Source: Anaerolineaceae bacterium (GTDB lineage: Bacteria > Chloroflexota > Anaerolineae > Anaerolineales > Anaerolineaceae). Taken from it: DNA of 64,000 nucleotides. Below the pieces are notes generated by a model. It made no database searches. It saw nothing but the letters and a program-made list of their open reading frames with translations, and was not told the DNA's origin. Shown here in pieces: positions 1,900 to 33,264 of the stretch. The position numbers were made by a program, and so were the translations under genes. How positions within the stretch are numbered: position 1 is the stretch's first letter; every line of letters begins with the position of its first letter. Location of the stretch: assembly GCA_016841525.1 (NCBI GenBank), contig JAENYZ010000001.1, positions 372,001-436,000 of the forward strand, given 5' to 3'.

Positions 1900-2994
1900 A
1901 TGATCAAACCCGAATTATTGAACATCAGGGACAAAACACTGAAACTGCCTGCCTTCCTGCCAGACGCAACCTCCGGTTACGTCCGTGCTGTCGACTCACA
2001 GGATCTTCAGAACGTGAAAATTCAAGCATTGGTGATGAACACATTCCACCTGATGCAAAAACCAGGTTCTAGCACCATCCAGGCTTTCAACGGACTGCAC
2101 CAATTTGCAGACTGGCCCGGCGTGATTGTGACCGACTCAGGCGGGTTTCAAGCCTATTCCCTGATCCATCAATCCGATCAATTTGGCACACTCAGCGACC
2201 GCGGCATTATCTTTCGCCCGGAAGGGAAAAATCGCAAATTCATTCTTTCCCCCGAGAAAAGTGTCCAGCTCCAGGTCAGCTATGATACCGATGTGGTCAT
2301 CTGCCTGGACGATTGCACCCATGTCGATGCTTCCCGGGAGGAACAGGAACTTTCTGTAGAGCGCACCCTGGATTGGGCAGCCCGCTGCAAAAAGGAATAC
2401 CTGCATCAAATGGACCAGCGGCAAGTCGATAATGACAAACGCCCGCTCATCTTCGGCGTCATCCAGGGCGGCGGCTACCCCGATTTGCGGAAAAAATGCG
2501 CAGAGGGCCTTTTGGAAATTGGCTTTGACGGCTTCGGGTACGGAGGTTGGCCGCTGGACTCACAGGGCAATCTCCTGGAGGAAATGGTCTCCCTCACACG
2601 AATTTTGGTGCCGGAGGAATTCACCATGCACGCCCTTGGCATCGGTCACCCCCTCAACCTAAAACGCACTTATGAGTTGGGGTATGTGATCTTCGACTGC
2701 GCCCTTCCCACACGGGATGCGCGCCACGGTCGCCTGATGCGTTATACGGTACCCCCTGGAACAGCTCTTTCCGGGAATAAATGGCTGGAATATGTTTACA
2801 TGCAGGATAAAAAACACATCAAAGACAGCCGTCCAATTTCAGAATATTGCGATTGTCCTGTGTGCTCTCATTACAGCCTGGGCTACCTTCATCACCTCTT
2901 CAAAACGGGGGATTGGCTCTATCAGCGCCTGGCAACCCTGCATAACTTGCGGTTCATGACGCAATTGACAGAACGGCTCCGCAACAATGATTGA
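1900..2994 (+). CDS. tRNA-guanine transglycosylase-like protein (divergent TGT paralogue)
   Basis: 364 aa. TGT enzymes swap guanine for a 7-deazaguanine in RNA. The key residues are present: DSGGFQ with Asp79, the nucleophile Asp266 in FDCALPTRDARHG, and a zinc site C317-x-C319-x2-C322-x25-H348. The bacterial substrate-binding segment GG(L/I)(S/A)VGE is replaced by GGWPLDSQG (about 215-223), and FGVIQGGGY stands for the usual FGIVQGG. It may therefore be a paralogue with a different base or RNA substrate rather than standard Tgt. It starts 1 nt after the RsmI-like gene and its end overlaps the next gene by 8 nt. A YhhQ-type precursor transporter gene lies 5.5 kb downstream, which fits salvage of a 7-deazaguanine. 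Confidence 0.8.
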   Translation: MIKPELLNIRDKTLKLPAFLPDATSGYVRAVDSQDLQNVKIQALVMNTFHLMQKPGSSTIQAFNGLHQFADWPGVIVTDSGGFQAYSLIHQSDQFGTLSDRGIIFRPEGKNRKFILSPEKSVQLQVSYDTDVVICLDDCTHVDASREEQELSVERTLDWAARCKKEYLHQMDQRQVDNDKRPLIFGVIQGGGYPDLRKKCAEGLLEIGFDGFGYGGWPLDSQGNLLEEMVSLTRILVPEEFTMHALGIGHPLNLKRTYELGYVIFDCALPTRDARHGRLMRYTVPPGTALSGNKWLEYVYMQDKKHIKDSRPISEYCDCPVCSHYSLGYLHHLFKTGDWLYQRLATLHNLRFMTQLTERLRNND

Positions 2995-3796
2995 TCGACC
3001 TGACATTGAAAATCTGGTAAAAAAAGTCCAGGCAAACAAAAAATACGAAGCAATCACACCCAAGCTTGTCAGGAGGCTTTCTAAATCTGCAATTGCCAGG
3101 GGGTTGAGCGGAAAATCCGCTGTCAAAGATGTTCGGAATAAATTGCACCAAATCGGCGGCGCATACTTCAAACAGAAGATCGATTATTCTCAATGCCTGA
3201 ATGAGCTCAAAGAAACTGACAAAAGCCTCAACTCTGATCAACTTCAACAATTTTGTGCCAGGATGATGGGCTTGCATGCCTCCACAGCTGAGCGACTGCC
3301 CATCCTTGAGGATTTTTTTAGGACCTGTCTCGAACCGATAGCCCCCGTTAAAAGCATCCTGGATTTAGCCTGCGGATTAAACCCGCTGGCAATCTCATGG
3401 ATGCCTTTACAAACTGGCTTTACCTACCATGCCTGCGATATCTACATGGATATGTTAAGCCTGGTTCAATCCTTTTTCGATCACCTAGGGATTGACGGCA
3501 CGACTGAAGCCTGTGACCTGGTTGGTGAAGTCCCCACAAAACCTGCACAAATTGCCTTCTTGCTCAAATCCATCCCTTGCCTTGAACAGGTCGATAAAGA
3601 TATCGGAATCATGCTTTTAGAAAAAATTCAGGCGGACCATATTCTGGTCTCTTTCCCTGTGCAGAGCCTTGGCGGGCGGAATAAAGGCATGCCAGATTTT
3701 TACCAGGATCATTTCTACGAGATGATCTCGGGCAAAGCCTGGGGGATAAAAAAATTTACTTTTCAAACCGAGTTGGCTTTCCTGGTGACCAAATGA
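2987..3796 (+). CDS. Arm/FmrO-family 16S rRNA (m7G1405-type) methyltransferase, copy 1
   Basis: 269 aa, close in length to ArmA/RmtB/Sgm. It carries the family hallmarks: KKLHQIxxAYF-like region near residues 51-61, HASTAERL at 97-104, the SAM motif LDLACGLNPLA at 125-135, an acidic residue in HACDI at 148-152, FLLKSIPCLEQ at 191-201 and VSFPVQSLGGRNKGM at 221-235. Known members methylate N7 of G1405 in 16S helix 44 and give high-level resistance to 4,6-disubstituted aminoglycosides. All motifs look intact, so activity is likely, but resistance is an inference. It overlaps the TGT-like gene by 8 nt and the second copy by 4 nt (ATGA), showing translational coupling. Confidence 0.82.
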   Translation: MIDRPDIENLVKKVQANKKYEAITPKLVRRLSKSAIARGLSGKSAVKDVRNKLHQIGGAYFKQKIDYSQCLNELKETDKSLNSDQLQQFCARMMGLHASTAERLPILEDFFRTCLEPIAPVKSILDLACGLNPLAISWMPLQTGFTYHACDIYMDMLSLVQSFFDHLGIDGTTEACDLVGEVPTKPAQIAFLLKSIPCLEQVDKDIGIMLLEKIQADHILVSFPVQSLGGRNKGMPDFYQDHFYEMISGKAWGIKKFTFQTELAFLVTK

Positions 3797-4614
3797 TCAC
3801 AATTGATATCGATGTAGATTCGCTGATCAAGCGCATCCTTGAAATGAAAAAATACCGGGGTTCAGGTCTTAACCCGGATACCATCCGTGATCTGATCCTC
3901 CAGGAAGCACCGCATCAAGCCTCATCCAAAAAACTGCTAAAGGCTGTCAAACGCAAACTTCACAATATCGTTGCCCCCTACCTGGGTGAACCGGATTATG
4001 AAAAACTGAGGGATGAGCTCAAACAAATTAAAAACACCACACCTGATTCTCCAGAAATTAGATCATTCTGTGAAAGAGTCCTTTCAGAGCATGCTTCAAC
4101 TTCAGAGCGCCTGCCGTATATGGAAGATTTCTACAATCAGCTATTTCAGCAGACTGGCATCCCTCACACCATACTAGACCTGGCGTGCGGACTGCATCCA
4201 CTGGCTTTGCCATGGATGGGACTGCCCCTCAGCGTCCAATACCATGCTTACGATATCATCCAGCCGCGTGTTGATTTCATCAATGATTTTTTCAAAACAA
4301 TCGGATTGGCACCCCTTGCGGAAAACCGGGATATTTTGGTAAATCCGCCTGAAATTAAAGCGGACCTTGCATTGATTTTCAAAGAAGCCCACCGTATGGA
4401 GAAACGCCAGCCAGGCTGCAGCCGTGGTTTATGGGCAGAACTGGATGTAAAAACCCTGGCAGTCTCACTTCCCACTCAGGACCTTTCAGGGACCCACAGC
4501 CTTTTAGAACAGCACCGTACGCTCGTTCTCGACAACTTGCCTGAGGACCATAGGCTTGAAGAAATCGCTATTGAAAATGAGATTGTCTTTTTGATCAGGA
4601 AAGTCCAGGCTTGA
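3793..4614 (+). CDS. Arm/FmrO-family 16S rRNA methyltransferase, divergent copy 2
   Basis: 273 aa, a tandem paralogue of the preceding gene. HASTSERL (100-107), LDLACGLHPLALPWM (128-142) and HAYDI (151-155) are kept, so SAM binding is expected. The later motifs have diverged: the FLLKxxPxLE segment reads LIFKEAHRMEKRQPG (194-208), and the SLxGxxKGM segment reads DLSGTHSLLEQ (230-240), without the KGM triplet. It may be a partner subunit, a methylase for another base, or a pseudo-enzyme. It overlaps copy 1 by 4 nt and stops 4 nt before the next gene. The family assignment is firm, the activity open. Confidence 0.75.
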   Translation: MITIDIDVDSLIKRILEMKKYRGSGLNPDTIRDLILQEAPHQASSKKLLKAVKRKLHNIVAPYLGEPDYEKLRDELKQIKNTTPDSPEIRSFCERVLSEHASTSERLPYMEDFYNQLFQQTGIPHTILDLACGLHPLALPWMGLPLSVQYHAYDIIQPRVDFINDFFKTIGLAPLAENRDILVNPPEIKADLALIFKEAHRMEKRQPGCSRGLWAELDVKTLAVSLPTQDLSGTHSLLEQHRTLVLDNLPEDHRLEEIAIENEIVFLIRKVQA

Positions 4615-4618
4615 GATC

Positions 4619-6082
4619 ATGGCGCTTGACACATCCAATAAGCTCAATCAGAGTTTGCAAAGATTTTCACATATTCTCTCACAGGCGGATATTCAAGGCC
4701 TTCTCGATATTCAAGAAGGACCCCTTCATACAGGCATCCGCTTAAATCCCCTAAAAACATCACCGGATGAAGCAATTAGAGATTTAAGCGAGCGCTATGG
4801 TTGGAAGATTGAACCGATTCACTTCTGCAATAATGCTTGGAAAATCATCAATGCCGAAACCTCGCCTGGCGGAACGATTGAGCATCGCATGGGTGCTTAT
4901 TATCTGCAGGACGCTGCATCAATGGTGCCGGTAAGCTTGTTTGAGATCAATGAACCCGAGCCATTAATTCTTGATCTGGCAGCCTCTCCGGGTGGAAAAA
5001 CGACCCATTTGATTGACCGATCAGGGGATAAGGGCTTAATTATTGCAAACGACGGCAGCCAGGGACGAATCACGGCATTGCGTGCTGTGCTAGAGACGTG
5101 GGGAGGCATCAACCAGGTGATCACCAACTACCCGGGAGAATCCTTTGGGGGATGGTTCCCGGAAACTTTTGATATCGTGCTTCTGGATGCCCCTTGTAGT
5201 ATGGAAAATTTGCGTCCGACCCCTAACCATCCGCTTCGAGAAACAACCACCGATGAACGTCTGCGATTGAAAGAACGGCAAATCCAATTGTTAACCAGCG
5301 GTTTACAAGCGCTTAAAACTGGCGGGCAGCTTGTTTACGCAACCTGCTCCCTTGCTCCGGAAGAGGACGAAGCTGTCATAAATGCCCTATTCGATAAATA
5401 TCCAGAGACTTTTAAAATCGAGGATGTGTCAAGCCAGTTTCAATTCAAGGCACCCGGTTTAACAGCCTTTGATGGCGAAACCTATCACCCACAGCTAATC
5501 AAAGCCCTGCGACTCTGGCCGCATCTGACGAATATGTCTGGTTTTTTCTGCACATTAATAACGAAACTTCGAGGGATGGATACAAACAGAGAAACACCAC
5601 CCAATCGGGACTTCTCAGCAACGCACCTTGAACCGCTGAAGAAAAATAACAAAACTCAAATTCATGATCAAGTAGAAACAAATTATGGCCTGGAGCTGGA
5701 GAATATCTTAGCAGCGTTTAGTTTAGAATTGTTCCAACGGTTTGACCAATTGTTCTTGATCCCCCAAAAATACACGGAGCACTTCATCACCCTGCCCTTT
5801 GAATACATTGGCATGCCCCTGGGTCAGTGGCACCAGAACATACTGATCCCTTCGCATACCTTTGCCAGCCGTTTTGGCACAGAATTTACCCGAGGGAAAA
5901 TTGTCATCGAAGAATCCCTTGTCGGGTTGTGGATTTCAGGCCGGGATATACGCCACCCACAGACTGAACTGACGCCAAAGGGTCAGTATTTATTGGTTAA
6001 TGATCTAGATGGAAGAAATTTAGGCTTGGGAAAATTGCTGCCAAAACGGCTGCGAAACATGCTCCCGAGAGGGCTAATCTAA
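4619..6082 (+). CDS. RsmF/NOP2-family rRNA m5C methyltransferase with C-terminal RNA-binding domain
   Basis: 487 aa. Residues about 60-110 include YYLQDAASMVPV, typical of the NOL1/NOP2/Sun family. The SAM loop LDLAASPGGKTTHL is near 118-131, motif IV DAPCS near 188-193 and the catalytic motif ATCSLAPEEDE near 240-250; both cysteines needed for m5C formation are present. After DAPCS the usual GEG is MEN. The C-terminal third (about 370-487) resembles the PUA-like extension of RsmF/YebU. RsmF makes m5C1407 in 16S helix 44, two bases from the Arm target. It closes the operon and overlaps the convergent plsC by 9 bp. Confidence 0.82.
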   Translation: MALDTSNKLNQSLQRFSHILSQADIQGLLDIQEGPLHTGIRLNPLKTSPDEAIRDLSERYGWKIEPIHFCNNAWKIINAETSPGGTIEHRMGAYYLQDAASMVPVSLFEINEPEPLILDLAASPGGKTTHLIDRSGDKGLIIANDGSQGRITALRAVLETWGGINQVITNYPGESFGGWFPETFDIVLLDAPCSMENLRPTPNHPLRETTTDERLRLKERQIQLLTSGLQALKTGGQLVYATCSLAPEEDEAVINALFDKYPETFKIEDVSSQFQFKAPGLTAFDGETYHPQLIKALRLWPHLTNMSGFFCTLITKLRGMDTNRETPPNRDFSATHLEPLKKNNKTQIHDQVETNYGLELENILAAFSLELFQRFDQLFLIPQKYTEHFITLPFEYIGMPLGQWHQNILIPSHTFASRFGTEFTRGKIVIEESLVGLWISGRDIRHPQTELTPKGQYLLVNDLDGRNLGLGKLLPKRLRNMLPRGLI

Positions 6083-15985: not shown

Positions 15986-18900
15986 CTACTTCAAAATTTG
16001 CGGCAGATAAATCATGTTATCAAATTCCACATGCTCTGAGACCGTAATGCTGAAAGATTGTGTATCAAACAACCCACCATCATCAGTCACCGTCAATTCC
16101 ACAAAATGGTCTCCGAGCTCAGCCATGCTAGGCGTACCTGTCAGCACAGCGGTGCCGTCCCCATTGTCCACAAAGGTCAACCAGGTGGGCTTTGTTACTA
16201 TGATCGTAAGTTCATCTTCATCTGTGTCAGCAGCGGCGATATTATAGGTATACAGCTCATCCACAACCGCAGATGTGATCGGCACACTGGTGAAGGAAGG
16301 CGCTTCGTTTACAACAACGCCGCCCGGGTTTTCAGTGCTGAGCAGGTAAGTGCCGGTTTGGCAAATCGGGACAGCCAGCATATTATCCGCCAAAAAGTGG
16401 ATCGGTTCGTAACCGGGGCAGCTTGCTTCTACCCAACCGGGATCATCGTAACGATAGAGCTGCAGGTCATTTTCCGCGCCGCTCAAATCTTCATCCCGGT
16501 ATTTTGCGATCAAGGCAGCAGGGATGCTGCCAATAACATGATCCGGAAGTTCCAAACCACCGCGATAAGCCACAATCTCCAAAGGTGTGCCTACAACACC
16601 TGCACCAGAAATGTCTGTTGAGATCAGTTCGTAACGGATACTCTCGTTACTGTTGTTTGTAGGAAGGTATAAACCGTAACCCAAACCAGGGGCTTCTTCA
16701 TATTGGATGTCATAATAAGCCTGCTTTAGCCTAAGCCCCGGGTCAAGGTAATCAGCGTTGGCAATGTAGATCAAGCCATAACCAATATTGTTATTGATCA
16801 TGGTCTTTTCATCATGCATTTCATCAAGAGCATCAGTATAATCAATCACAGCGTAGATCTTTTCTTCACCTGACCCGCGATCGACAACCCAGCTTGTGCT
16901 GCACTGCTCAGGACCATTCTGCCTGTCCAAAGCTGTTGTGGTCGTGCAGTTTCCAATTTCATTTTCAGCGGCGGGAATTCCCAAAAAGAAGTGTACGCTC
17001 ACAGGGCTGGTTGATGTCTCATAACTGAAGTTGCGAACGGTTGCCGTCATGATCAGCGTATCACCATATTGTACATAGCCGGGGTCAAGCTTTATGTCAT
17101 GTGAAAAGAGTTGTTTAGCCAGGCCGCAGGGGGGACCATCGAGTTCTCCAGTCGATGGAAAAATCCCAGTTTCATGGTCCGGAAAGCCGTACCACGGCAG
17201 CGTAAACGCAGGATCCGGTTTTTCATAAGCCATCCAATAACCGCCCTCAGTAGGTTGGGTTTGATAATCCATAACCAGGTAACCCGCCTGTGCCCAATAA
17301 AGCAGGCTTCTGGTTGTATATGCATTCCCAATCACTTCTGGTGGAGGAATATGTACCATTACGCTGGTAAGTTTTGAAAAAGCGCTGCTCATAGTAGATA
17401 AGCCTTCGATACCATAGGTGCCTTCAACTGAGGCACGGAAGCTAAAATCAAAGACTTTCCCAACCAACGGGATGCTTAGCTCGTTTTCGTAGCTGTATTC
17501 AACGCCAGCGCTGACCTGGTTGGAAAAACTGCTGGAATACTCCTTGGTGATGGAATTCTGCATTATCAAGGTCAGGTCAGTGCTGCCTGTCGTAGATTTA
17601 TCAAACAAAAACAACCTGTCGGGATTATAATCATCAGGGACCAACGATCCAGTCATTGCATCATCATAAGACCAGACATTATTAACCTGGTGGCTTGGCG
17701 CATAGAAAGATTCATCACAATGTGAACCATTCTTCGTTTCCGGTGAATTTGTTTGGCTGATATTGAGTGGGAAAGCAACAACAATCGTGTAAGGATCCTC
17801 AGGCATTTCACCTTCAGCCCCATAAACAGGGTACTCCCAAACACCATACTTGGTGCTGTTGTAAATCACCTGGTCATCGATTTCTGCGGAATTCTCCTCT
17901 GTCAGGGTGTAAGCATTAATTTCCTGAGCTGCCTTGGAAAAAGACTCCCCATAGGTATTGCTCAGGCTGGTCGATACGGTGTGCCCCATTGCACTAGCGC
18001 TGGTCTCCAAACTGGTAGATAAACTCCAGTCCCGCTTTGATTCAACCATGGACGAGTCCTCAGTTGTGCTTTCGTAGACATGCGTAGCGTAGGCACCTGC
18101 ACCCACTTCAAATAGGATAGGGTCGTCGCTGTTTTCAAGAATATCCCTATGGATGGGCGGCCTGTTCAGAAAAACCACCGGCGTGATCATCTTTTCCTGC
18201 ACCCGGTATGAGGGCGTTCCCACACGCAGTCCCTCACCGGTGAAATCATCCGAAACAAGTCGTGGATAATAACGTATTTCACCTTCAAATTGATTTAAAA
18301 TACGCTCATAATCATCTTTTTCAGTATCAAGCTTAAACACTTTAAATTCTTGTCCAGAATTGGTTCCTGCTTGAAGGAGAAACTCACCCATCATATCACG
18401 GTCAAAATCACCTATAACCACTCGGTCCCGGAAAGAATTAGCATTTGCACTCACAGTTCCATCCGACGCATCAGTAATAGTAAATTTACCAGTGTCAATC
18501 TGCCCATCTACCGGGTCAATATCCCAGCTATTTGACCGCCAGTCCTCATTATGAGCTAAATCTATTACTTGAACTTTACGTATGAACTTTTCTGAATCGT
18601 TTTTTGCTACAGTAAATAATGCATAACACCAATAACTGGAATCCGCAAAAGAGTGTGGCCAAGTTCTTACGATTTCATCCATCCCATCATTGTCCACATC
18701 ACCTGATGTTATTGTAAGACCCACTGAATTCACTGATGCATCAAGAGAAGCAGTATCATGCCAAAAATTTTCCACATTATAAGCGTTGATTTCAGGCTCG
18801 TCTGTTAATGGATCAAAATCAATGTCGTAAACGCGCGTCATAAATAAAAATCGATTGCCGTCACACAAGCCTTCCCATTCCCCATCATACTTTGTCCAAC

Positions 18901-20890
18901 TTGAAATTACTGCTAACTCTTCAAGCCCATCACCGTCATAATCACCGGGAGCGATTTCAAGCGTTCCTGTAAAGGTAAAACCGGAAAGGGTGGTGAGGGT
19001 TGTAATTGAGGTTTCCTTGGTGAATGCAGGGGAGTCAGGATCCCTGTTGAAGCTCAGGATATCTACAGCATACTCTGTTTCGGCCCCATTTATCCTAAGA
19101 AGTGCAATCTCATCCACACCATCACGATTAAGAAAATCACCTGCTGCAATTCGGAAAAAACTTACCTCATCGGATGTGGGTGTTACATAAGATGTGATCA
19201 GGTTTTGCGTGAACCCAACCTGATCTGGATTAGAAGAGGTGTCAAAAAGGCTGAAGGTCACCTGGTTTCCAGCCGAGGCATAAGCTGCCACTGTTTGACT
19301 GCGCCCATCTCCCCAGAAATAACCCGTTTCCACATCCAAAGATAAATCCCAATAGGCACCTTGATTGCGCGTTTCACCTAAAAAACCAGTGTCAACATTT
19401 GTTGGTATTGAGGGTAAGCCATCAGCCAGATTTTCCCACCCAGTGCTGGCCCGGCTAATCTGCAAACCGCCAGTTTCGGTCTGAGCAGCAATATAAGGCA
19501 GGTGACCTTCCATCAATGACGCACCTGGCGCAGATGCCAAAATGCCATCCTGATCAATCCAATCATCGTAAGATTCATCAAAGTAAGTCATCTTCCAGAG
19601 CTGGTTATCAGACCCCCGAACATAAAGGAAATTCTGCATCGCAGGAAGAGATATCACCGCAGGAGCAGATGCAATATGCACATCCAGCGGCATCCCACCC
19701 AGGTCCAATCGCTGCCAGCTTTCCCAACCAGCGTTGAAAATCCGTGTCCACAGGGCATTGTCAGCCCCAGAGGCAAAGACCTGGATGTGGTCTGTCCCCA
19801 TGGAAATTGCTGCCGGACCAGAAGCCAGCATCCCACCCAGGTTATGCCATGCCTCCCAGGTGCTGCCGTTAAAGTGACGCCAGCGCAGGGTGTTGTCCGG
19901 TGCCAAACGGAACAGGTCAATCATCCCCTCACGGGCAACGACAGCTGGTGCTGCCAATTCCGGCACCGGGACCAAATTCTCCAATGGCTGCCAGTAGGCA
20001 GGGTCATCAACAAGTTCCCACCCCCCACCAGACCAGTCACCATCACTCCATGAGCGCCTGTAAACCAGGTTATTCGCCAGGATAGAATAAACATCAAAAG
20101 CGTTTGGTCCTGTTGAGACAATAGCTGGCGCCGAAAGGAGCATGCCGCCCCCACCATCTTTATCCCAGGCAAGAGCAGGATTATCAACATCCTCCAGGTG
20201 CCACAGCGTATGATCGTATCCTCGAACCAGCAGATGAACAATTGAATTAGCCGTCACCAATCCTGGTGCGGAAGTTGTTCTGCCTATGTAACCCGGCATC
20301 TCAGTTGTGTAAAGATTCAAGCTTGGTTCTCCATCAAGCCATGCCAGGATCTGTTCTGCCTGGCCATCATTGTTCAGATCACCAGCCGCTATATCATCGT
20401 GGGGATATTTCCCATAATCATCATAACTTCCTGGGATTGCTGCAATCGCAGCAGGATTTGTATTGATTTCAAAGGATTCAAATGCAAAATTGTAGTAAGG
20501 ACCGGTACCTGGGACTGATGCGCTCCTAAAAATTTTATCCAGGCTGACCATGTTGTAATTGCCTGCAAAGGGGTCGCTCCCGTCCGCTGCCAAAGCATCC
20601 ACCCCGCTGAGCTGGACCGTTTCAACCATGCGTGTTTCTGGATTGATCACATCCACATCGGTTGTGTAATCTAACGCGGGTGAGACATGTCCAACATCGT
20701 GGTGCGGAATGGGCTTTTCGGGCATTGGCCACGCCCATTCTGGGTCATATTCTAATGCAGACGCAGTTTGATTCGCCTCAGAGGTTGCAAGTTCCTCCCT
20801 CTTAATCGCCAAGGCTGATTGCGGGGCACACAGTGTAAAAACACTCACCAAAATTAAGAACACGTTGAAATATCGAACAATTGCTTTCAT
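15986..20890 (-). CDS. Large secreted multidomain beta-propeller / FG-GAP protein
   Basis: 1634 aa. A signal peptide ends near Ala28 (SALA). FG-GAP-type Ca-binding repeats occur (GDLNNDGQAEQ near 165, GDYDGDGLEELAV, GDVDNDGMDEIV and GDFDRDMMGEF between about 640 and 850). Between them (about 200-480) lie PLL/lectin-propeller-like repeats of the type LxVRGxDxxLWxxxxxxxxW. A Ser/Thr-rich amphipathic beta region (about 950-1230) contains segments such as SLETSASAMGHTVSTSLSN and NQVSAGVEYSYENELSIPL. Then come a CARDB-like domain (about 1290-1410), a cadherin/He_PIG-like Ig domain (about 1530-1625) and the tail YLPQILK. It is probably exported and carbohydrate- or surface-binding; the middle region could be pore-forming. 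The function is unknown. Confidence 0.65.
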   Translation of the reverse strand: MKAIVRYFNVFLILVSVFTLCAPQSALAIKREELATSEANQTASALEYDPEWAWPMPEKPIPHHDVGHVSPALDYTTDVDVINPETRMVETVQLSGVDALAADGSDPFAGNYNMVSLDKIFRSASVPGTGPYYNFAFESFEINTNPAAIAAIPGSYDDYGKYPHDDIAAGDLNNDGQAEQILAWLDGEPSLNLYTTEMPGYIGRTTSAPGLVTANSIVHLLVRGYDHTLWHLEDVDNPALAWDKDGGGGMLLSAPAIVSTGPNAFDVYSILANNLVYRRSWSDGDWSGGGWELVDDPAYWQPLENLVPVPELAAPAVVAREGMIDLFRLAPDNTLRWRHFNGSTWEAWHNLGGMLASGPAAISMGTDHIQVFASGADNALWTRIFNAGWESWQRLDLGGMPLDVHIASAPAVISLPAMQNFLYVRGSDNQLWKMTYFDESYDDWIDQDGILASAPGASLMEGHLPYIAAQTETGGLQISRASTGWENLADGLPSIPTNVDTGFLGETRNQGAYWDLSLDVETGYFWGDGRSQTVAAYASAGNQVTFSLFDTSSNPDQVGFTQNLITSYVTPTSDEVSFFRIAAGDFLNRDGVDEIALLRINGAETEYAVDILSFNRDPDSPAFTKETSITTLTTLSGFTFTGTLEIAPGDYDGDGLEELAVISSWTKYDGEWEGLCDGNRFLFMTRVYDIDFDPLTDEPEINAYNVENFWHDTASLDASVNSVGLTITSGDVDNDGMDEIVRTWPHSFADSSYWCYALFTVAKNDSEKFIRKVQVIDLAHNEDWRSNSWDIDPVDGQIDTGKFTITDASDGTVSANANSFRDRVVIGDFDRDMMGEFLLQAGTNSGQEFKVFKLDTEKDDYERILNQFEGEIRYYPRLVSDDFTGEGLRVGTPSYRVQEKMITPVVFLNRPPIHRDILENSDDPILFEVGAGAYATHVYESTTEDSSMVESKRDWSLSTSLETSASAMGHTVSTSLSNTYGESFSKAAQEINAYTLTEENSAEIDDQVIYNSTKYGVWEYPVYGAEGEMPEDPYTIVVAFPLNISQTNSPETKNGSHCDESFYAPSHQVNNVWSYDDAMTGSLVPDDYNPDRLFLFDKSTTGSTDLTLIMQNSITKEYSSSFSNQVSAGVEYSYENELSIPLVGKVFDFSFRASVEGTYGIEGLSTMSSAFSKLTSVMVHIPPPEVIGNAYTTRSLLYWAQAGYLVMDYQTQPTEGGYWMAYEKPDPAFTLPWYGFPDHETGIFPSTGELDGPPCGLAKQLFSHDIKLDPGYVQYGDTLIMTATVRNFSYETSTSPVSVHFFLGIPAAENEIGNCTTTTALDRQNGPEQCSTSWVVDRGSGEEKIYAVIDYTDALDEMHDEKTMINNNIGYGLIYIANADYLDPGLRLKQAYYDIQYEEAPGLGYGLYLPTNNSNESIRYELISTDISGAGVVGTPLEIVAYRGGLELPDHVIGSIPAALIAKYRDEDLSGAENDLQLYRYDDPGWVEASCPGYEPIHFLADNMLAVPICQTGTYLLSTENPGGVVVNEAPSFTSVPITSAVVDELYTYNIAAADTDEDELTIIVTKPTWLTFVDNGDGTAVLTGTPSMAELGDHFVELTVTDDGGLFDTQSFSITVSEHVEFDNMIYLPQILK

Positions 20891-27101: not shown

Positions 27102-28748
27102 ATGAAGAAGAAATATCTATTACTTATTGTTGTGCTGCTGCTCTCAAGCTTCGTGCTTGGTGCCTGCCAACAAGCAACAGAAGAACCTGTTGAAGAAACT
27201 GAAGAACCTGTTGTTGAAGAAACTGAAGAATCCATGGAACCCGAATATCTTTGGACCACGAATCTCCGTGAGGCGATTGCCGCAGCTATTGACCGAGAGG
27301 TCATCGTTGACCGTGTGTTTGAAGGCCGCAACGTTCCTGCCTATCACATGGTTCCTGTAGGTTACCCCTACGCCACCCAGCCTTTCTTTGACAAATACGG
27401 CACACGGGACCTTGACATGGCGATTTCATTGTTAGAAGCCGAAGGTTACACAGCGGACAATCCTTTTGTCTTTGACCTGTGGTTCCCCCCAGAGCACTAC
27501 GGCACAACCACCGCTGATGTTATGCAAGTCATCAAAGAGCAGCTTGAAGAAACCGGTTTGATAGTTGTTAATCTCAACAGCATGAACTGGGCTGAATATG
27601 TCGACGGCTTTGTCGCTGGTGACCTGCCCTTCTTCATGCTGGGTTGGTTCCCGGACTTTGCTGACCCAGAGAACTGGTTGTCACCCTTTGCTTCCTGCCT
27701 GCAATCACCGGATAACGGCGTGAACTACTGCAATGAAGAAATGGATTCACTCTTACAGTCAGCAGCTGCCTCCGCAGATCCTGCTGAAAGAGAATCTCTC
27801 TACCAGCAAATCGGGGAGCTCTATGCTGAAGAAGTCCCAACCATCCCCTTGTTCTGGGAACCCGAGTTCGTTTCCTATCGAACTGGTGTTGAAGGTGTAG
27901 TTGTTGGACCGCCATTCGAATTCAACTACGATGTATTGAGTTTTGGTGATGACGCCGACCCTGCCTCTGGCAACACGGACACCATCATCATCGGAACCAC
28001 CGATGAGGTCAACAGCCTTGACGCTAGCGATGCTTATGCAACCCATGACTGGGAAATCATCAAGAACACGGGCGCTGCCCTGCTCTCCTACACACCCGGA
28101 ACATCGGAGCTTATACCTGGCGCAGCAGCAGCTATGCCTGAGGTCAGCGACGATGGCCTGACATATACATTCACTCTCAGGGATAATCTGGCATTTGCTG
28201 ACGGCACTCCGGTATCAGCACAAAATTATGTTGACTCCTGGAACCGTCTCAACACCCTCGAAGGTCAGGTTTCCGGATTGATTCAGCTCTACGTTGAAAG
28301 CGTTGAAGCTGTTGATGATCTGACGGTAGCCTATCACCTGAAAGATACCTTTGGTTTCTTCCCGGCATTGTCAGCCACAGCACCTTTCGTGGTCACCAAC
28401 CCGGCAACCTTTGTTGAAGATGAGATCGTCCAATTCCCGGATGTTCTTGATGGGATTGGTCCCTATCGTATGGTCTCCCATTCAGTTGGTGAGCAAATGG
28501 TTCTCGAAGCCAATCCTGAGTACTTTGGTGAAGCACCACTCATCCCCAATGTGATCATCCGATACTTCGCAGATCCAACCACCATGTCCAATGCGGTTGA
28601 AAGCGGCGAGATTGATGTCGCTTGGCGCACACTTGGGCCCGTTGAAGCTGTTCGTCTGCAGGAAGTTGATGGTGTCACTGTCGATACTGTTGATGCCCCA
28701 GCCTTGCGCTACATGGTCTTCAACCACACTTATGAAGTTCAAGAGTAA
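27102..28748 (+). CDS. Family-5 peptide-binding lipoprotein with circularly permuted halves
   Basis: 548 aa. A lipoprotein signal has lipobox LGAC with Cys22, then an acidic Glu/Pro linker (24-46). The next part, about 48-290, is what normally forms the C-terminal half of SBP_bac_5 proteins: REAIAAAIDREVIVDRVF, then LGWFPDFADPENWLSPF, then the typical C-terminal strand GVVVGPPFEFNYDVLSF. The usual N-terminal half follows from 293: DTIIIGTTDEVNSLDASDAY, LTYTFTLRDNLAFADGTPV and GIGPYRMVSHSVGEQ. It ends at ALRYMVFNHT, where normal proteins continue into the VRxAIAxAIDR helix. Both junctions are in frame and linker-like. It should still bind peptides for the DppBCDF genes that follow, unless permutation changed this. 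An assembly error is the main alternative. Confidence 0.8.
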   Translation: MKKKYLLLIVVLLLSSFVLGACQQATEEPVEETEEPVVEETEESMEPEYLWTTNLREAIAAAIDREVIVDRVFEGRNVPAYHMVPVGYPYATQPFFDKYGTRDLDMAISLLEAEGYTADNPFVFDLWFPPEHYGTTTADVMQVIKEQLEETGLIVVNLNSMNWAEYVDGFVAGDLPFFMLGWFPDFADPENWLSPFASCLQSPDNGVNYCNEEMDSLLQSAAASADPAERESLYQQIGELYAEEVPTIPLFWEPEFVSYRTGVEGVVVGPPFEFNYDVLSFGDDADPASGNTDTIIIGTTDEVNSLDASDAYATHDWEIIKNTGAALLSYTPGTSELIPGAAAAMPEVSDDGLTYTFTLRDNLAFADGTPVSAQNYVDSWNRLNTLEGQVSGLIQLYVESVEAVDDLTVAYHLKDTFGFFPALSATAPFVVTNPATFVEDEIVQFPDVLDGIGPYRMVSHSVGEQMVLEANPEYFGEAPLIPNVIIRYFADPTTMSNAVESGEIDVAWRTLGPVEAVRLQEVDGVTVDTVDAPALRYMVFNHTYEVQE

Positions 28749-28904: not shown

Positions 28905-29927
28905 ATGTCCTCTTCACTGCGTAGATTCTTAATCACTCGCATACTACTGACAATCCCAATGGTTCTGATCCTGGTGACGATGATCTTTTTTATTATGCGA
29001 GTGCTGCCAGGTGATCCCATACGTTCTCAGCTAGGACCTCGTGTGAGCGAAGAGCAAGCGGATGCCCTCCGTGAACGCCTTGGCTTGAACAGACCACTCT
29101 ATATTCAATATTTTGATTTCCTTTGGGATATGGTGACTCTGGATTTTGGGACTGCTTTAACCCAGGGGGAGCGACCAATCAGAGATGAACTGGGAGAAAG
29201 GTTGCCAGCCACAATCGAGTTAACCATCCCGGCGATTGCTATCACAGCATTGATCGGGATCCTATCCGGTGCATTTGCCGCAAAGAATCGGAAAAAGCCA
29301 ATCGATTACAGTATACGACTGTTGAGCATCGCCATTTATTCAATCCCAATTTTTTTCATGGGATTAATCTTTCAGATTATTTTTGCTGTCAGAATTCCCA
29401 TTCTACCCCTATCAGGCAGGATGGACACCCTTTTACTGACCCAGTTTGAATCGATTACCAACTTCTATGTGATCGATGCCATCCTGACAGGAAATTGGCC
29501 CGCTCTTAGATCAGCACTAACCCATCTAATCATGCCCTCAATCACCCTGGGACTGGCATTAACTGGCGTTTTTGTCAGGTTAACCCGGGTCAATATGATT
29601 GAAATGCTTCAATCTGATTTTATTACTGCAGGCAGAGCCAGGGGAATCCCGGAAAGACGGCTGGTATATAAACATGCACTGCGGAATACCTTTATACCCA
29701 TTTTGACTTTGCTTGGACTGCAATTTGCCATTCTGCTGGCTGGGGCGGTTCTGACTGAAACGACATTTTCATGGCCGGGTGTTGGACGGTACCTTGTTGA
29801 CCGCATCGAGCTGAGAGATTATACAGCTGTCCAGGCGACCATCGGTGTTTTCGCATTGTTTGTTGCCCTGATCAGTTTGTTAATGGATATCATTTACGCG
29901 CTTATCGATCCTCGTATCAGGTATTAA
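28905..29927 (+). CDS. dppB: Peptide ABC transporter permease, DppB type
   Basis: 340 aa with six predicted membrane helices. The N-terminus (LITRILLTIPMVLILVTM) and VLPGDPIRSQLG are typical of DppB/OppB. The EAA loop is seen around GRARGIPERRLVYKHALRN (about 242-260). It forms the inner-membrane channel with the next gene product. Confidence 0.93.
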   Translation: MSSSLRRFLITRILLTIPMVLILVTMIFFIMRVLPGDPIRSQLGPRVSEEQADALRERLGLNRPLYIQYFDFLWDMVTLDFGTALTQGERPIRDELGERLPATIELTIPAIAITALIGILSGAFAAKNRKKPIDYSIRLLSIAIYSIPIFFMGLIFQIIFAVRIPILPLSGRMDTLLLTQFESITNFYVIDAILTGNWPALRSALTHLIMPSITLGLALTGVFVRLTRVNMIEMLQSDFITAGRARGIPERRLVYKHALRNTFIPILTLLGLQFAILLAGAVLTETTFSWPGVGRYLVDRIELRDYTAVQATIGVFALFVALISLLMDIIYALIDPRIRY

Positions 29928-29955: not shown

Positions 29956-31218
29956 ATGGAATCAGAAAAAATCAATAAAGAAATCGCCCCAACACCTGAG
30001 GAAGTACCAGAATGGCTGCTTGATCTTGATAAGGTTGGGTTTGTCCGAAGATTATTTCTTGCACGTAAATGGTACGGCGGGGATTGGTGGTTTGTTGCCA
30101 TCAGCGCAGTTCTTTTACTCTTTTTTATTATTGTCGGGATTTTCCCACAGTGGTTTGCCCCTTATGACCCAAGGGCAGAAGTAGGCCCTTCTTTATTAGC
30201 CCCTGGTGAGCCTCCCGCAAGTTACCTATTAATAACACCCCTTGAAAGTGGTGATATTCGCTTCAGGGATATTTCCGATCGAACGAATAACATCGGCTTT
30301 ATTATCGGCAGTGCTGCCAGCCAGGCGATGCGAGAAGCCACAGACGAGCTGAATGAGGACGCGCCGGAAGGTGTGCGCTACCAACCTCGGCAGCAGCGCT
30401 ATGAAACTTTAGAAGAAGGGCTCCAATCCCTGGCAGATGGTGAAATTGATGGCTTCATCGCCTCTCCTGAGGAACTTGGTGGAACCCTCGAGGATTTCCC
30501 AACCCTTCAGGTTGTGAGTACCCTTAGGGAAGTAGGCGAAAGCGGTTTTATTTTTGGTACAAACCAGATCGGTCAGGACATCCTGAGCCGAATTATTTGG
30601 GGTACACGCATCGCTTTAATTGTCGGACTGAGCTCTGCTGTGGTTTCCTTTTTGATAGGCGTTCCCCTTGGTTTGGTGAGTGGCTTTGTTGGTGGGCCAT
30701 TTGACCGGATTCTAACCCTCCTGATGGACAGCCTCTATTCTTTTCCTGGCTTGATATTGGCAATCTCGATCGCCGCTGTTCTGGGCGCTGGCATTGGTAA
30801 TATCATCGTATCAATTGCTGTGCTTTATGTGCCCACTTACTACCGGATCGTCAGGGGTCAGACCCTGGCTGTTAGAGAAGAGCTTTATGTTGAAGCAGCC
30901 CGCAGCATTGGGACCAAGTGGACAACCATCTTGCGGAAATACATTTTTCCCAATGTCATCCCCTCTGTAGTGATCATTTTTTCTGTCAATGTCGGTGATG
31001 CAATTTTGACAGAAGCTGGATTGAGCTTCCTTGGTTTTGGCCTCCCGCCTGATACACCGGACTGGGGAATCGACCTGGCTCGAGGTCAGGACTATGTCCG
31101 AAGAGCATGGTGGTTGATCACCTATCCTGGCTTAATGGTGACCATGGTCACCCTTTCATTCAGTATGCTCGGTGAAAGCTTATCGGAAATTCTCAACCCC
31201 CGTCTTACGGAGCGATAA
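29956..31218 (+). CDS. dppC: Peptide ABC transporter permease, DppC type, with inserted extracytoplasmic domain
   Basis: 420 aa, about 110 longer than usual. The first helix (about 46-66) leads to FAPYDPRAEV. In usual DppC a short loop then reaches GTDxxGRDxLSR, which here is GTNQIGQDILSR at about 201. Residues about 85-198 are an insertion whose pattern (YETLEEGLQSLADGEIDGFI) resembles the second lobe of SBP_bac_3 periplasmic binding domains. The EAA loop region (EAARSIGTKWTTILRKYI, about 314-331) is normal. The insert faces the outside and may receive or sense substrate. Confidence 0.9.
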   Translation: MESEKINKEIAPTPEEVPEWLLDLDKVGFVRRLFLARKWYGGDWWFVAISAVLLLFFIIVGIFPQWFAPYDPRAEVGPSLLAPGEPPASYLLITPLESGDIRFRDISDRTNNIGFIIGSAASQAMREATDELNEDAPEGVRYQPRQQRYETLEEGLQSLADGEIDGFIASPEELGGTLEDFPTLQVVSTLREVGESGFIFGTNQIGQDILSRIIWGTRIALIVGLSSAVVSFLIGVPLGLVSGFVGGPFDRILTLLMDSLYSFPGLILAISIAAVLGAGIGNIIVSIAVLYVPTYYRIVRGQTLAVREELYVEAARSIGTKWTTILRKYIFPNVIPSVVIIFSVNVGDAILTEAGLSFLGFGLPPDTPDWGIDLARGQDYVRRAWWLITYPGLMVTMVTLSFSMLGESLSEILNPRLTER

Positions 31219-31219
31219 T

Positions 31220-32233
31220 ATGGCTGAAAAAGAATTACTTTCACAAATCCGAAATTTGTCGGTTGAATATAAAACACGTTTAGGTCAGGTCAGCGCGGTT
31301 GACAGTGTTTCCTTTGATATTTACAAAGGCGAAATTCTCGGCCTGGTTGGAGAAAGCGGCTGCGGGAAGAGCACCATGGGGAAAGCCCTCATGCGCATGA
31401 TCCAACCCCCCGGCAAGATTACTGGCGGACAGATCATCTTCCAGGGAGAAGATATCATGACCTATGACGACAACCAGATGCGCGACTTCCGTGGTCGCAA
31501 AGTCAGCATGATCTTCCAGGACCCGATGACTTCCTTGAATCCCACTCAAAGGGTTGATGAGCACATCATCGAGGCCATTCAGGTTCATGAGCCGCAAGTA
31601 AAAATTGAAGAGGCTTTGAAACTTGCGGAAAAGATGATCAGGAAACTTGGCATGCAAAAGCGCCGTATGAACAGTTATCCGCACCAGCTTTCAGGCGGCA
31701 TGCGCCAAAGAGTTATGGTCGGCTTGGGGCTGGTCCTGAATGCGGACTTAATTGTGGCGGATGAAGCCACGACCTCACTGGACGTGATCGTTGAAGCCCA
31801 ACTGGCGGACCAACTCAAGGATATCCGGGAAGAATTTGGCGTCTCCTTGTTGGTGATCACCCATAATATTGCCCTGGTTGCTGAGATCTCCGATCGCATT
31901 GTTGTTATGTATGCCGGTCATGTGATGGAAATTGCTAATGTCGAACCGATCTTTGACAACCCGCTCCATCCCTATACGAGAGGATTGCTCAAATCGATCC
32001 CGAACATCAAACTTAACGACACCGAAGAACTCTATAAGATGCCGGGAGAGCCGCCCAACCTGACCCATCCGCCCAGCGGATGCCGATTTCACCCGCGCTG
32101 CCCACGTGTTATGCCCATTTGTAAAGTCCATGGGCCCGATCTGACAGAGGTAAGCCCGGGCAGGTTCGTCAAATGCTGGTTGTATATTGACCACCCTGAA
32201 AAAGAATCTGAAACCATAAAGGTGGAAGCATGA
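31220..32233 (+). CDS. dppD: Peptide ABC transporter ATP-binding protein, DppD type
   Basis: 337 aa from ATG 31220 (CGGAG ribosome binding site, 1 nt after dppC). A longer in-frame start at 31172 would lie inside dppC and is less likely. Walker A is GESGCGKST, the ABC signature LSGGMRQRV, Walker B LIVADEATTSLDV, and the H-loop is in VITHN. The oligopeptide-transporter C-terminus has PPSGCRFHPRCP, a cysteine pair that in related proteins holds an FeS or metal site. Confidence 0.94.
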   Translation: MAEKELLSQIRNLSVEYKTRLGQVSAVDSVSFDIYKGEILGLVGESGCGKSTMGKALMRMIQPPGKITGGQIIFQGEDIMTYDDNQMRDFRGRKVSMIFQDPMTSLNPTQRVDEHIIEAIQVHEPQVKIEEALKLAEKMIRKLGMQKRRMNSYPHQLSGGMRQRVMVGLGLVLNADLIVADEATTSLDVIVEAQLADQLKDIREEFGVSLLVITHNIALVAEISDRIVVMYAGHVMEIANVEPIFDNPLHPYTRGLLKSIPNIKLNDTEELYKMPGEPPNLTHPPSGCRFHPRCPRVMPICKVHGPDLTEVSPGRFVKCWLYIDHPEKESETIKVEA

Positions 32234-33264
32234 CAAATGAAATCATAAAAAACAACGGACACGATAAGGACTTCCTGGTTGAAATCAAGAACCTGAAAAA
32301 ATGGTTTCCTGTTCAAACCAGTTTTATTGACCAGTTATTTGTTAAAGAGCGCGATTTTGTAAGGGCTGTCGACGGCGTCTCATTTAATATCCAACGGGGA
32401 GAAGTTTTGGGGCTGGCTGGCGAGAGCGGCAGCGGCAAAACCACCATTGGCCGCCTGACCATCGGTCTCGAAGAGAAGACCGAAGGAGACGTGGTCTTCG
32501 ACGGCATTGACCTCTCCACCCTATCCGCAGAGGAACTGCGAAAAATGCGCCGCCGAATGCAAGTCATCTTCCAGGACCCTTTAGCGTCACTCAACCCCCG
32601 CATGTCCTTGGGTGATGCCATCAAACAGGGTTTGGAAATTCATTACCCGGAAACCTCCGACCAGCATCGAAATATTGTGATAGACATCATGGAAAAAGTT
32701 GGCCTGAGCCCTGCCCAATTCTTTTACAATAAATTCCCCCACCAGATTTCTGGGGGTCAGCGCCAGCGCGTGGTGATCGCCCGGGCCCTGGTCACGAAAC
32801 CCGACCTTATTTTGGCAGACGAACCGATTGCCATGGCGGATGTAAGTGTGCGAGCGCTTTTGCTGGATTTGATGGTGCAGCTGAAGAACGAATTCAACCT
32901 GACTTACCTGTTCATCACCCACGATTTAGCAACTGCAAAGTACATTTGCGACCGGATTGCCATTTTGTACCTGGGTAAGATTGTGGAGATTAGCACCCTG
33001 CCAGAAGTCTATGGGCACCCCCTGCACCCCTACACCAACGCTCTCCTGGCAGCCGTACCCGTACCTAACCCGCACGAACGCCGTAAGGAACCGATGCCCA
33101 AAGGCGAAATCCCTAACCCGATCAACCCACCACCCGGCTGCCGATTCCACCCCCGCTGTACTTATGCGCAAGCAATTTGTTCTGAGGAGGAACCTCTGCT
33201 GCGTGAACTGCGCCCGGGGCATGAGGTTGCCTGCCACTTTGCAGAGCAGTTTTTAAAAGAATAA
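32230..33264 (+). CDS. dppF: Peptide ABC transporter ATP-binding protein, DppF/OppF type
   Basis: 344 aa. It overlaps dppD by 4 nt. Walker A is GESGSGKT, the signature ISGGQRQRV, Walker B LILADEP. After it, the family's usual SALDVS D-loop reads AMADVS, so the D-loop Leu-Asp is altered while DppD keeps a normal one. The C-terminal PPGCRFHPRC motif is present. The change suggests a degenerate ATP site in this half, but this is inference. Confidence 0.93.
   Translation: MTNEIIKNNGHDKDFLVEIKNLKKWFPVQTSFIDQLFVKERDFVRAVDGVSFNIQRGEVLGLAGESGSGKTTIGRLTIGLEEKTEGDVVFDGIDLSTLSAEELRKMRRRMQVIFQDPLASLNPRMSLGDAIKQGLEIHYPETSDQHRNIVIDIMEKVGLSPAQFFYNKFPHQISGGQRQRVVIARALVTKPDLILADEPIAMADVSVRALLLDLMVQLKNEFNLTYLFITHDLATAKYICDRIAILYLGKIVEISTLPEVYGHPLHPYTNALLAAVPVPNPHERRKEPMPKGEIPNPINPPPGCRFHPRCTYAQAICSEEEPLLRELRPGHEVACHFAEQFLKE

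Follow-up and report, generated by a model that had tools for sequence, protein, structure and literature searches.

Does the reading frame at positions 27,102–28,748 of the window, a 64,000-nucleotide stretch of an Anaerolineaceae genome, encode a solute-binding protein (SBP) whose two halves have genuinely changed places, and if so, how did this arise and what does the protein do? The first-pass annotation, made from the sequence alone, read the frame as a peptide-binding lipoprotein in which the C-terminal half precedes the N-terminal half. Our analysis divides the gene as follows.

27102–28748, + strand: family-5 solute-binding lipoprotein in circular permutation (548 aa, with the stop codon inside the coordinates; SBP_bac_5; OppA/DppA type)
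27102–27167, + strand: lipoprotein signal peptide with lipobox LGAC and lipidated Cys at aa 22 (27165–27167), from sequence
27168–27248, + strand: flexible acidic, proline-containing linker from the lipid anchor to the new N terminus, from sequence and low pLDDT
27249–27941, + strand: old C-terminal half, aa ~50–280, from OppA alignment, our own HMM and model comparison
27942–27980, + strand: joining linker (aa 281–293) between the old C terminus and the old N terminus, from ortholog alignment and our own HMM
27981–28736, + strand: old N-terminal half, aa 294–545, from OppA alignment, our own HMM and model comparison

The whole protein scored 242.9 bits against SBP_bac_5 (E = 7.6e-72; Pfam cut-off 32.4), which establishes family membership by homology. 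Within the single uninterrupted frame, profile positions 216–365 came first (97 bits) and positions 1–211 second (149 bits), so that nearly the whole profile was covered, once only, in inverted order. Alignment with OppA (1b05) paired residues 54–253 with OppA 288–485 and residues 294–517 with OppA 14–253. Our own HMM, derived from 32 SBPs of normal order and 518 positions long, placed its positions 287–515 at aa 48–280 and 31–286 at aa 287–544, every position once. The two halves score 256 and 288 bits, which rules out chance. The old C-terminal half corresponds to OppA about 284–512, comprising domain III and the C-terminal strand of domain I, and the old N-terminal half to OppA about 1–280, comprising domains I-II-I and terminating at the domain I/III hinge; the chain ends a few residues past the natural mid-protein strand ALRYMVFNH. 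No part has been lost and none doubled. Pfam, the OppA alignment and our HMM thus agree on the inverted order that was first proposed, no alignment yields the normal order, and the coordinates first given, the linker placed at about 280–292 and the end point ALRYMVFNHT all proved correct. An N-to-C order is typical of described family-5 SBPs and lies outside the homology-based definition of the family; the permuted protein does not follow it. The frame is confirmed as a true circular permutant of a family-5 SBP.

Residues A21 and C22 of the lipobox are invariant in 19 orthologs, and an export signal is thus present. The N-terminal acidic/proline linker differs in length between orthologs, with low pLDDT at aa 21–32. 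In OppA, Asp419 pairs with the amino end of the bound peptide; Asp185 of the permuted protein is its retained equivalent.

An AlphaFold2 model of the permuted protein, with the ortholog alignment as input, had a pLDDT of 89.7 and a pTM of 0.82. Model residues 278–537 match OppA/YliB 1–273 (Z of 24–25) and residues 48–283 match HbpA2 280–514 (Z of 23.5), both in comparisons bound to chain order. Because Foldseek and VIA alignments follow chain order, the halves were compared without a whole-chain, order-independent superposition. The structure prediction proposed at the outset as a check thus returned a confident model in which each half matches the corresponding OppA-type half, and, with the halves matched separately, the ordinary three-domain, two-lobe fold is predicted to be retained. 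The domain limits of OppA are I, 1–44, 169–270 and 487–517; II, 45–168; and III, 271–486. By these limits, the new termini sit just beyond the hinge between domains I and III: domain III has become contiguous and comes first, the I-II lobe follows, and of the two hinge crossings one is severed.

Directly downstream, the window encodes the components of a transporter.

28905–29927, + strand: DppB-type permease, the next gene after the SBP
29956–31218, + strand: DppC-type permease with an extra segment before the transport domain
31220–32233, + strand: DppD-type ATPase
32230–33264, + strand: DppF-type ATPase

The permuted SBP heads an SBP-dppB-dppC-dppD-dppF operon wherever the contig permits, and a partner importer of BCDF type is thus present and conserved. 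Its closest normal-order relatives (L069, L071, L073 and L075–L077) head the same operon, and their transporters are 59–71% identical to those of the permuted window operon. The extra segment of the window DppC spans about aa 90–215; we considered whether it goes together with receptor permutation and rejected this, since DppC is equally long beside normal-order receptors. No NCBIfam equivalog reached its cut-off, and the substrate is unassigned. Elsewhere, the window encodes a secreted protein of 1,634 aa (15986–20890, − strand).

Compared with the OppA/DppA/NikA family (PF00496, SBP cluster C), the window protein is homologous over its full length, in two blocks, and has in common the predicted folds of the halves, the lipobox, the adjacent BCDF transporter and the Asp of the OppA D419 type. 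It differs in that the C-half precedes the N-half, the chain begins and ends at the hinge of domains I and III, and a linker connects the old termini. We consider it highly probable that the gene encodes the lipid-anchored receptor of the downstream DppBCDF-type importer and is a genuine, in-place family-5 permutant with an ordinary fold. The role in import is inferred, in the absence of expression, binding or transport data, as are the capture of a ligand (a peptide or other amine-bearing solute) and its delivery to DppBC with docking, for which there is no biochemistry. In this reading, the chain has, relative to OppA, been opened shortly after the hinge of domains I and III (OppA about 275–285), and about 13 residues join the old termini. 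The lipid anchor attaches at the hinge, where a single covalent crossing is left of the original two. By inference, the membrane-tethered receptor would capture its ligand between the lobes and dock on DppBC as normal-order orthologs would. Alternatively, the permuted chain could form a domain-swapped dimer or act as a dedicated sensor or scavenger rather than an importer receptor; a severed hinge crossing could favour swapping, and no biochemical data exclude it. We regard this as unlikely, however, given that the protein is the sole SBP in a conserved importer operon, occupies the position of the normal gene in relatives, carries a lipobox and gives a confident model as a monomer.

How the permuted gene arose can be inferred in part from its relatives. 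Both halves are nearest to one normal-order ortholog, L069 (56 and 61%, with the next ones at 42–49%), as would be expected had a single gene been permuted, and because the orthologous operon in close relatives has a normal-order gene, the permutation occurred in place. Routes to permuted families by duplication, fusion and trimming or by fission and fusion have been described (PMC3320104). Most likely, we infer, the gene was permuted within the existing operon by tandem duplication and fusion, after which the outer halves would have been lost. We looked for flanking remnants or a duplication intermediate and found none, and this route is therefore unproven. The missing remnant would also suit fission–fusion, a route known in other permuted families, or a shuffling of halves from different paralogs. 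Either is very unlikely, as separately encoded halves were not seen and the two halves would hardly share their nearest normal-order ortholog in an orthologous operon had they come from different genes.

Permuted family-5 SBPs are not confined to the lineage of the window protein. In a tree of chains projected on the profile regardless of their order, we found two further permuted clades, types B and C. Type B proteins (~690 aa) run through profile positions 286–510 and then 29–260, with the hinge cut of the window protein, whereas type C proteins (~560–620 aa) run through ~138–511 and then ~36–133 and are cut in a domain II loop. The AlphaFold model of a type C member (pLDDT 89.8, pTM 0.84) matches DppA 91–507 over residues 53–444 with a Z of 32. 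Two further permuted proteins were found.

L107:2015–4906 (= G000:C1:233514–236405), − strand: type D permuted SBP of 964 aa in the same genome as the window, cut near profile position 224
L171:2023–3810, + strand: permuted OppA-like lipoprotein on a Subdoligranulum variabile plasmid (OY725879.1), with the type C cut in domain II

The host of L171 is a gut bacterium of the Bacillota/Clostridia, outside Chloroflexota, and the gene is without annotation in the plasmid table. Type C and L171 are cut at HMM position about 134/140. These proteins and L068, a further permuted SBP, resemble the window protein in that the old C terminus is joined to the old N terminus; a linker likewise lies at the new N terminus, and a lipobox is present wherever the N terminus is readable. 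All are lineages separate from the window protein, from which type C and L171 differ in their domain II cut and type D in its cut near HMM position 224 and its large insert.

Several further features of these loci were recorded. The insert of the type D SBP is long and Ala/Glu-rich, and the DppC of its operon (L107:9320–11074) has an extra segment of ~300 aa. A single 1,132-aa lipoprotein (L161:2122–5517, − strand) combines Peripla_BP_6, SBP_bac_3 and a permuted type C SBP_bac_5, and a protein of 932 aa (L159:993–3788, + strand) combines a heme-binding motif, SBP_bac_3 and a permuted type C SBP_bac_5. At L167, an SBP of normal order and a permuted one of type C adjoin on the same strand (1–2280 and 2633–5104, both −). 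Two candidate traces of duplication in type C were rejected: HMM positions 115–134 seemingly occur twice in L177, L181 and L187, which reflects forced alignment of unlike segments, and long N termini, considered as a leftover half, consist of other domains in both proteins inspected (L159 and L161).

L068 bears directly on how often the chain has been permuted. It is cut at the same point as the window protein, yet is only 42–46% identical to it and groups with normal-order genes (its contig begins inside the linker, and the signal peptide is not visible). The SBP tree rejects a single permuted clade of type A and L068 (p-AU = 1.6e-6). A second tree, built independently from the concatenated transporter genes, also places L068 beside the normal-order L071, with support of 1.0. 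As judged from these two trees, the same hinge point was used in no fewer than two independent permutations. Had the chain been permuted just once, long ago, and then returned to normal order several times, this would explain why type A, L068 and type B are cut at nearly the same point. Such a history would have to contend, however, with the rejected clade, with the nesting of L068 among normal-order genes in both trees and with the different cut of type C, and the normal-order genes on several intervening branches mean that several exact reversions would be needed; we hold it to be very unlikely.

The inverted order is conserved far beyond the window. About 50 loci show it, one of them in the complete genome of Pelolinea submarina and others in three further cultured isolates. 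Full-length matches in the same order occur at 71–91% identity in 20 genomes of the family, and the order recurs in more than 30 named records, part of which overlap these 20; they include Pelolinea submarina NZ_AP018437.1 (a complete chromosome) and isolates of Longilinea arvoryzae, Anaerolinea thermolimosa and Ornatilinea apprima. Comparison of close orthologs gave, for each half, a dN of about 0.04–0.11 and a dS ranging from about 0.8 to saturation, with a higher dN in the joining linker than in either half; on these substitution estimates, strong purifying selection acts on both halves. That two tandem SBP genes were fused in assembly, conceivable because this genome is a draft and such tandem genes exist in the class (for example, L167), can be dismissed, as order and cut are identical across these loci, the complete isolate chromosome and the three other isolates included, both halves are under selection and the profile is covered exactly once. 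Misassembly, which the first-pass annotation had named as the result that would refute it, is ruled out by conservation in isolates, and the search for the same order in other genomes that it had called for succeeded.

Of 199 Anaerolineae genomes sampled, 103 gave single-frame matches across the junction with a junction profile (A3; E ≤ 3e-46). In a sample of 251 genomes drawn from the whole phylum, 35 gave such matches, including families outside Anaerolineae. By this measure, about half of the sampled Anaerolineae genomes carry a permuted family-5 SBP; about 50 of the junction-spanning and related loci were checked individually with an order-aware profile. Junction-spanning matches on plasmids of Rhodococcus, Nitratireductor, Ensifer, Thioclava, Sulfitobacter, Rahnella, Shinella and Azospirillum proved on inspection to have the normal order, as did the plasmid candidates L128, L172–L175 and L188–L192, leaving the Subdoligranulum record as the only permuted one among those inspected.

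The initial reading knew of no described natural permutation in this family, and our searches agree. In the PDB, where the junction profile matched 97 sequences, the best stretch lay on one side of the junction only in all 60 matches listed, so that no solved permuted family-5 structure was seen among the matches listed. None of the open-access papers searched describes a naturally permuted family-5 SBP; with the search limited to such papers and UniProt and InterPro outside its scope, absence is not proof. The nearest precedent is Tp0684 (MglB-2) of Treponema pallidum, a naturally permuted, tethered Type I sugar SBP classed as 'Type Ic / Cluster Bc', which was shown to bind glucose and to close despite its permutation, and for which the authors suggested tethering as the reason (PMC4990184). 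Both proteins are natural circular permutants of tethered SBPs, but Tp0684 has the Type I sugar-binding fold of an unrelated SBP class and is cut inside the N lobe, whereas the window protein lacks the fold that defines that class and matches family-5 profiles and structures.

The finding is wider than the single gene first noticed: permutation recurs throughout the class and uses no fewer than three cut points. Tentatively, and with more doubt than conviction, we suggest that the family-5 SBPs of Anaerolineae are a hotspot of recurrent permutation (at least five events and at least three cut points, with the hinge cut three times), which may be selected for shifting the lipid tether and loosening a hinge crossing, thereby tuning opening and permease docking. 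Natural circular permutation is well known in principle; here it is repeated in one receptor family within one phylum. Chain order cannot be safely assumed in SBP annotation, domain counts or methods based on multiple sequence alignments in Chloroflexota. Permutation at the same point twice within orthologous operons constitutes a natural experiment: because permuted and normal receptors serve such similar transporters, the effects that termini, tether position and hinge connectivity have on capture and import are directly measurable.
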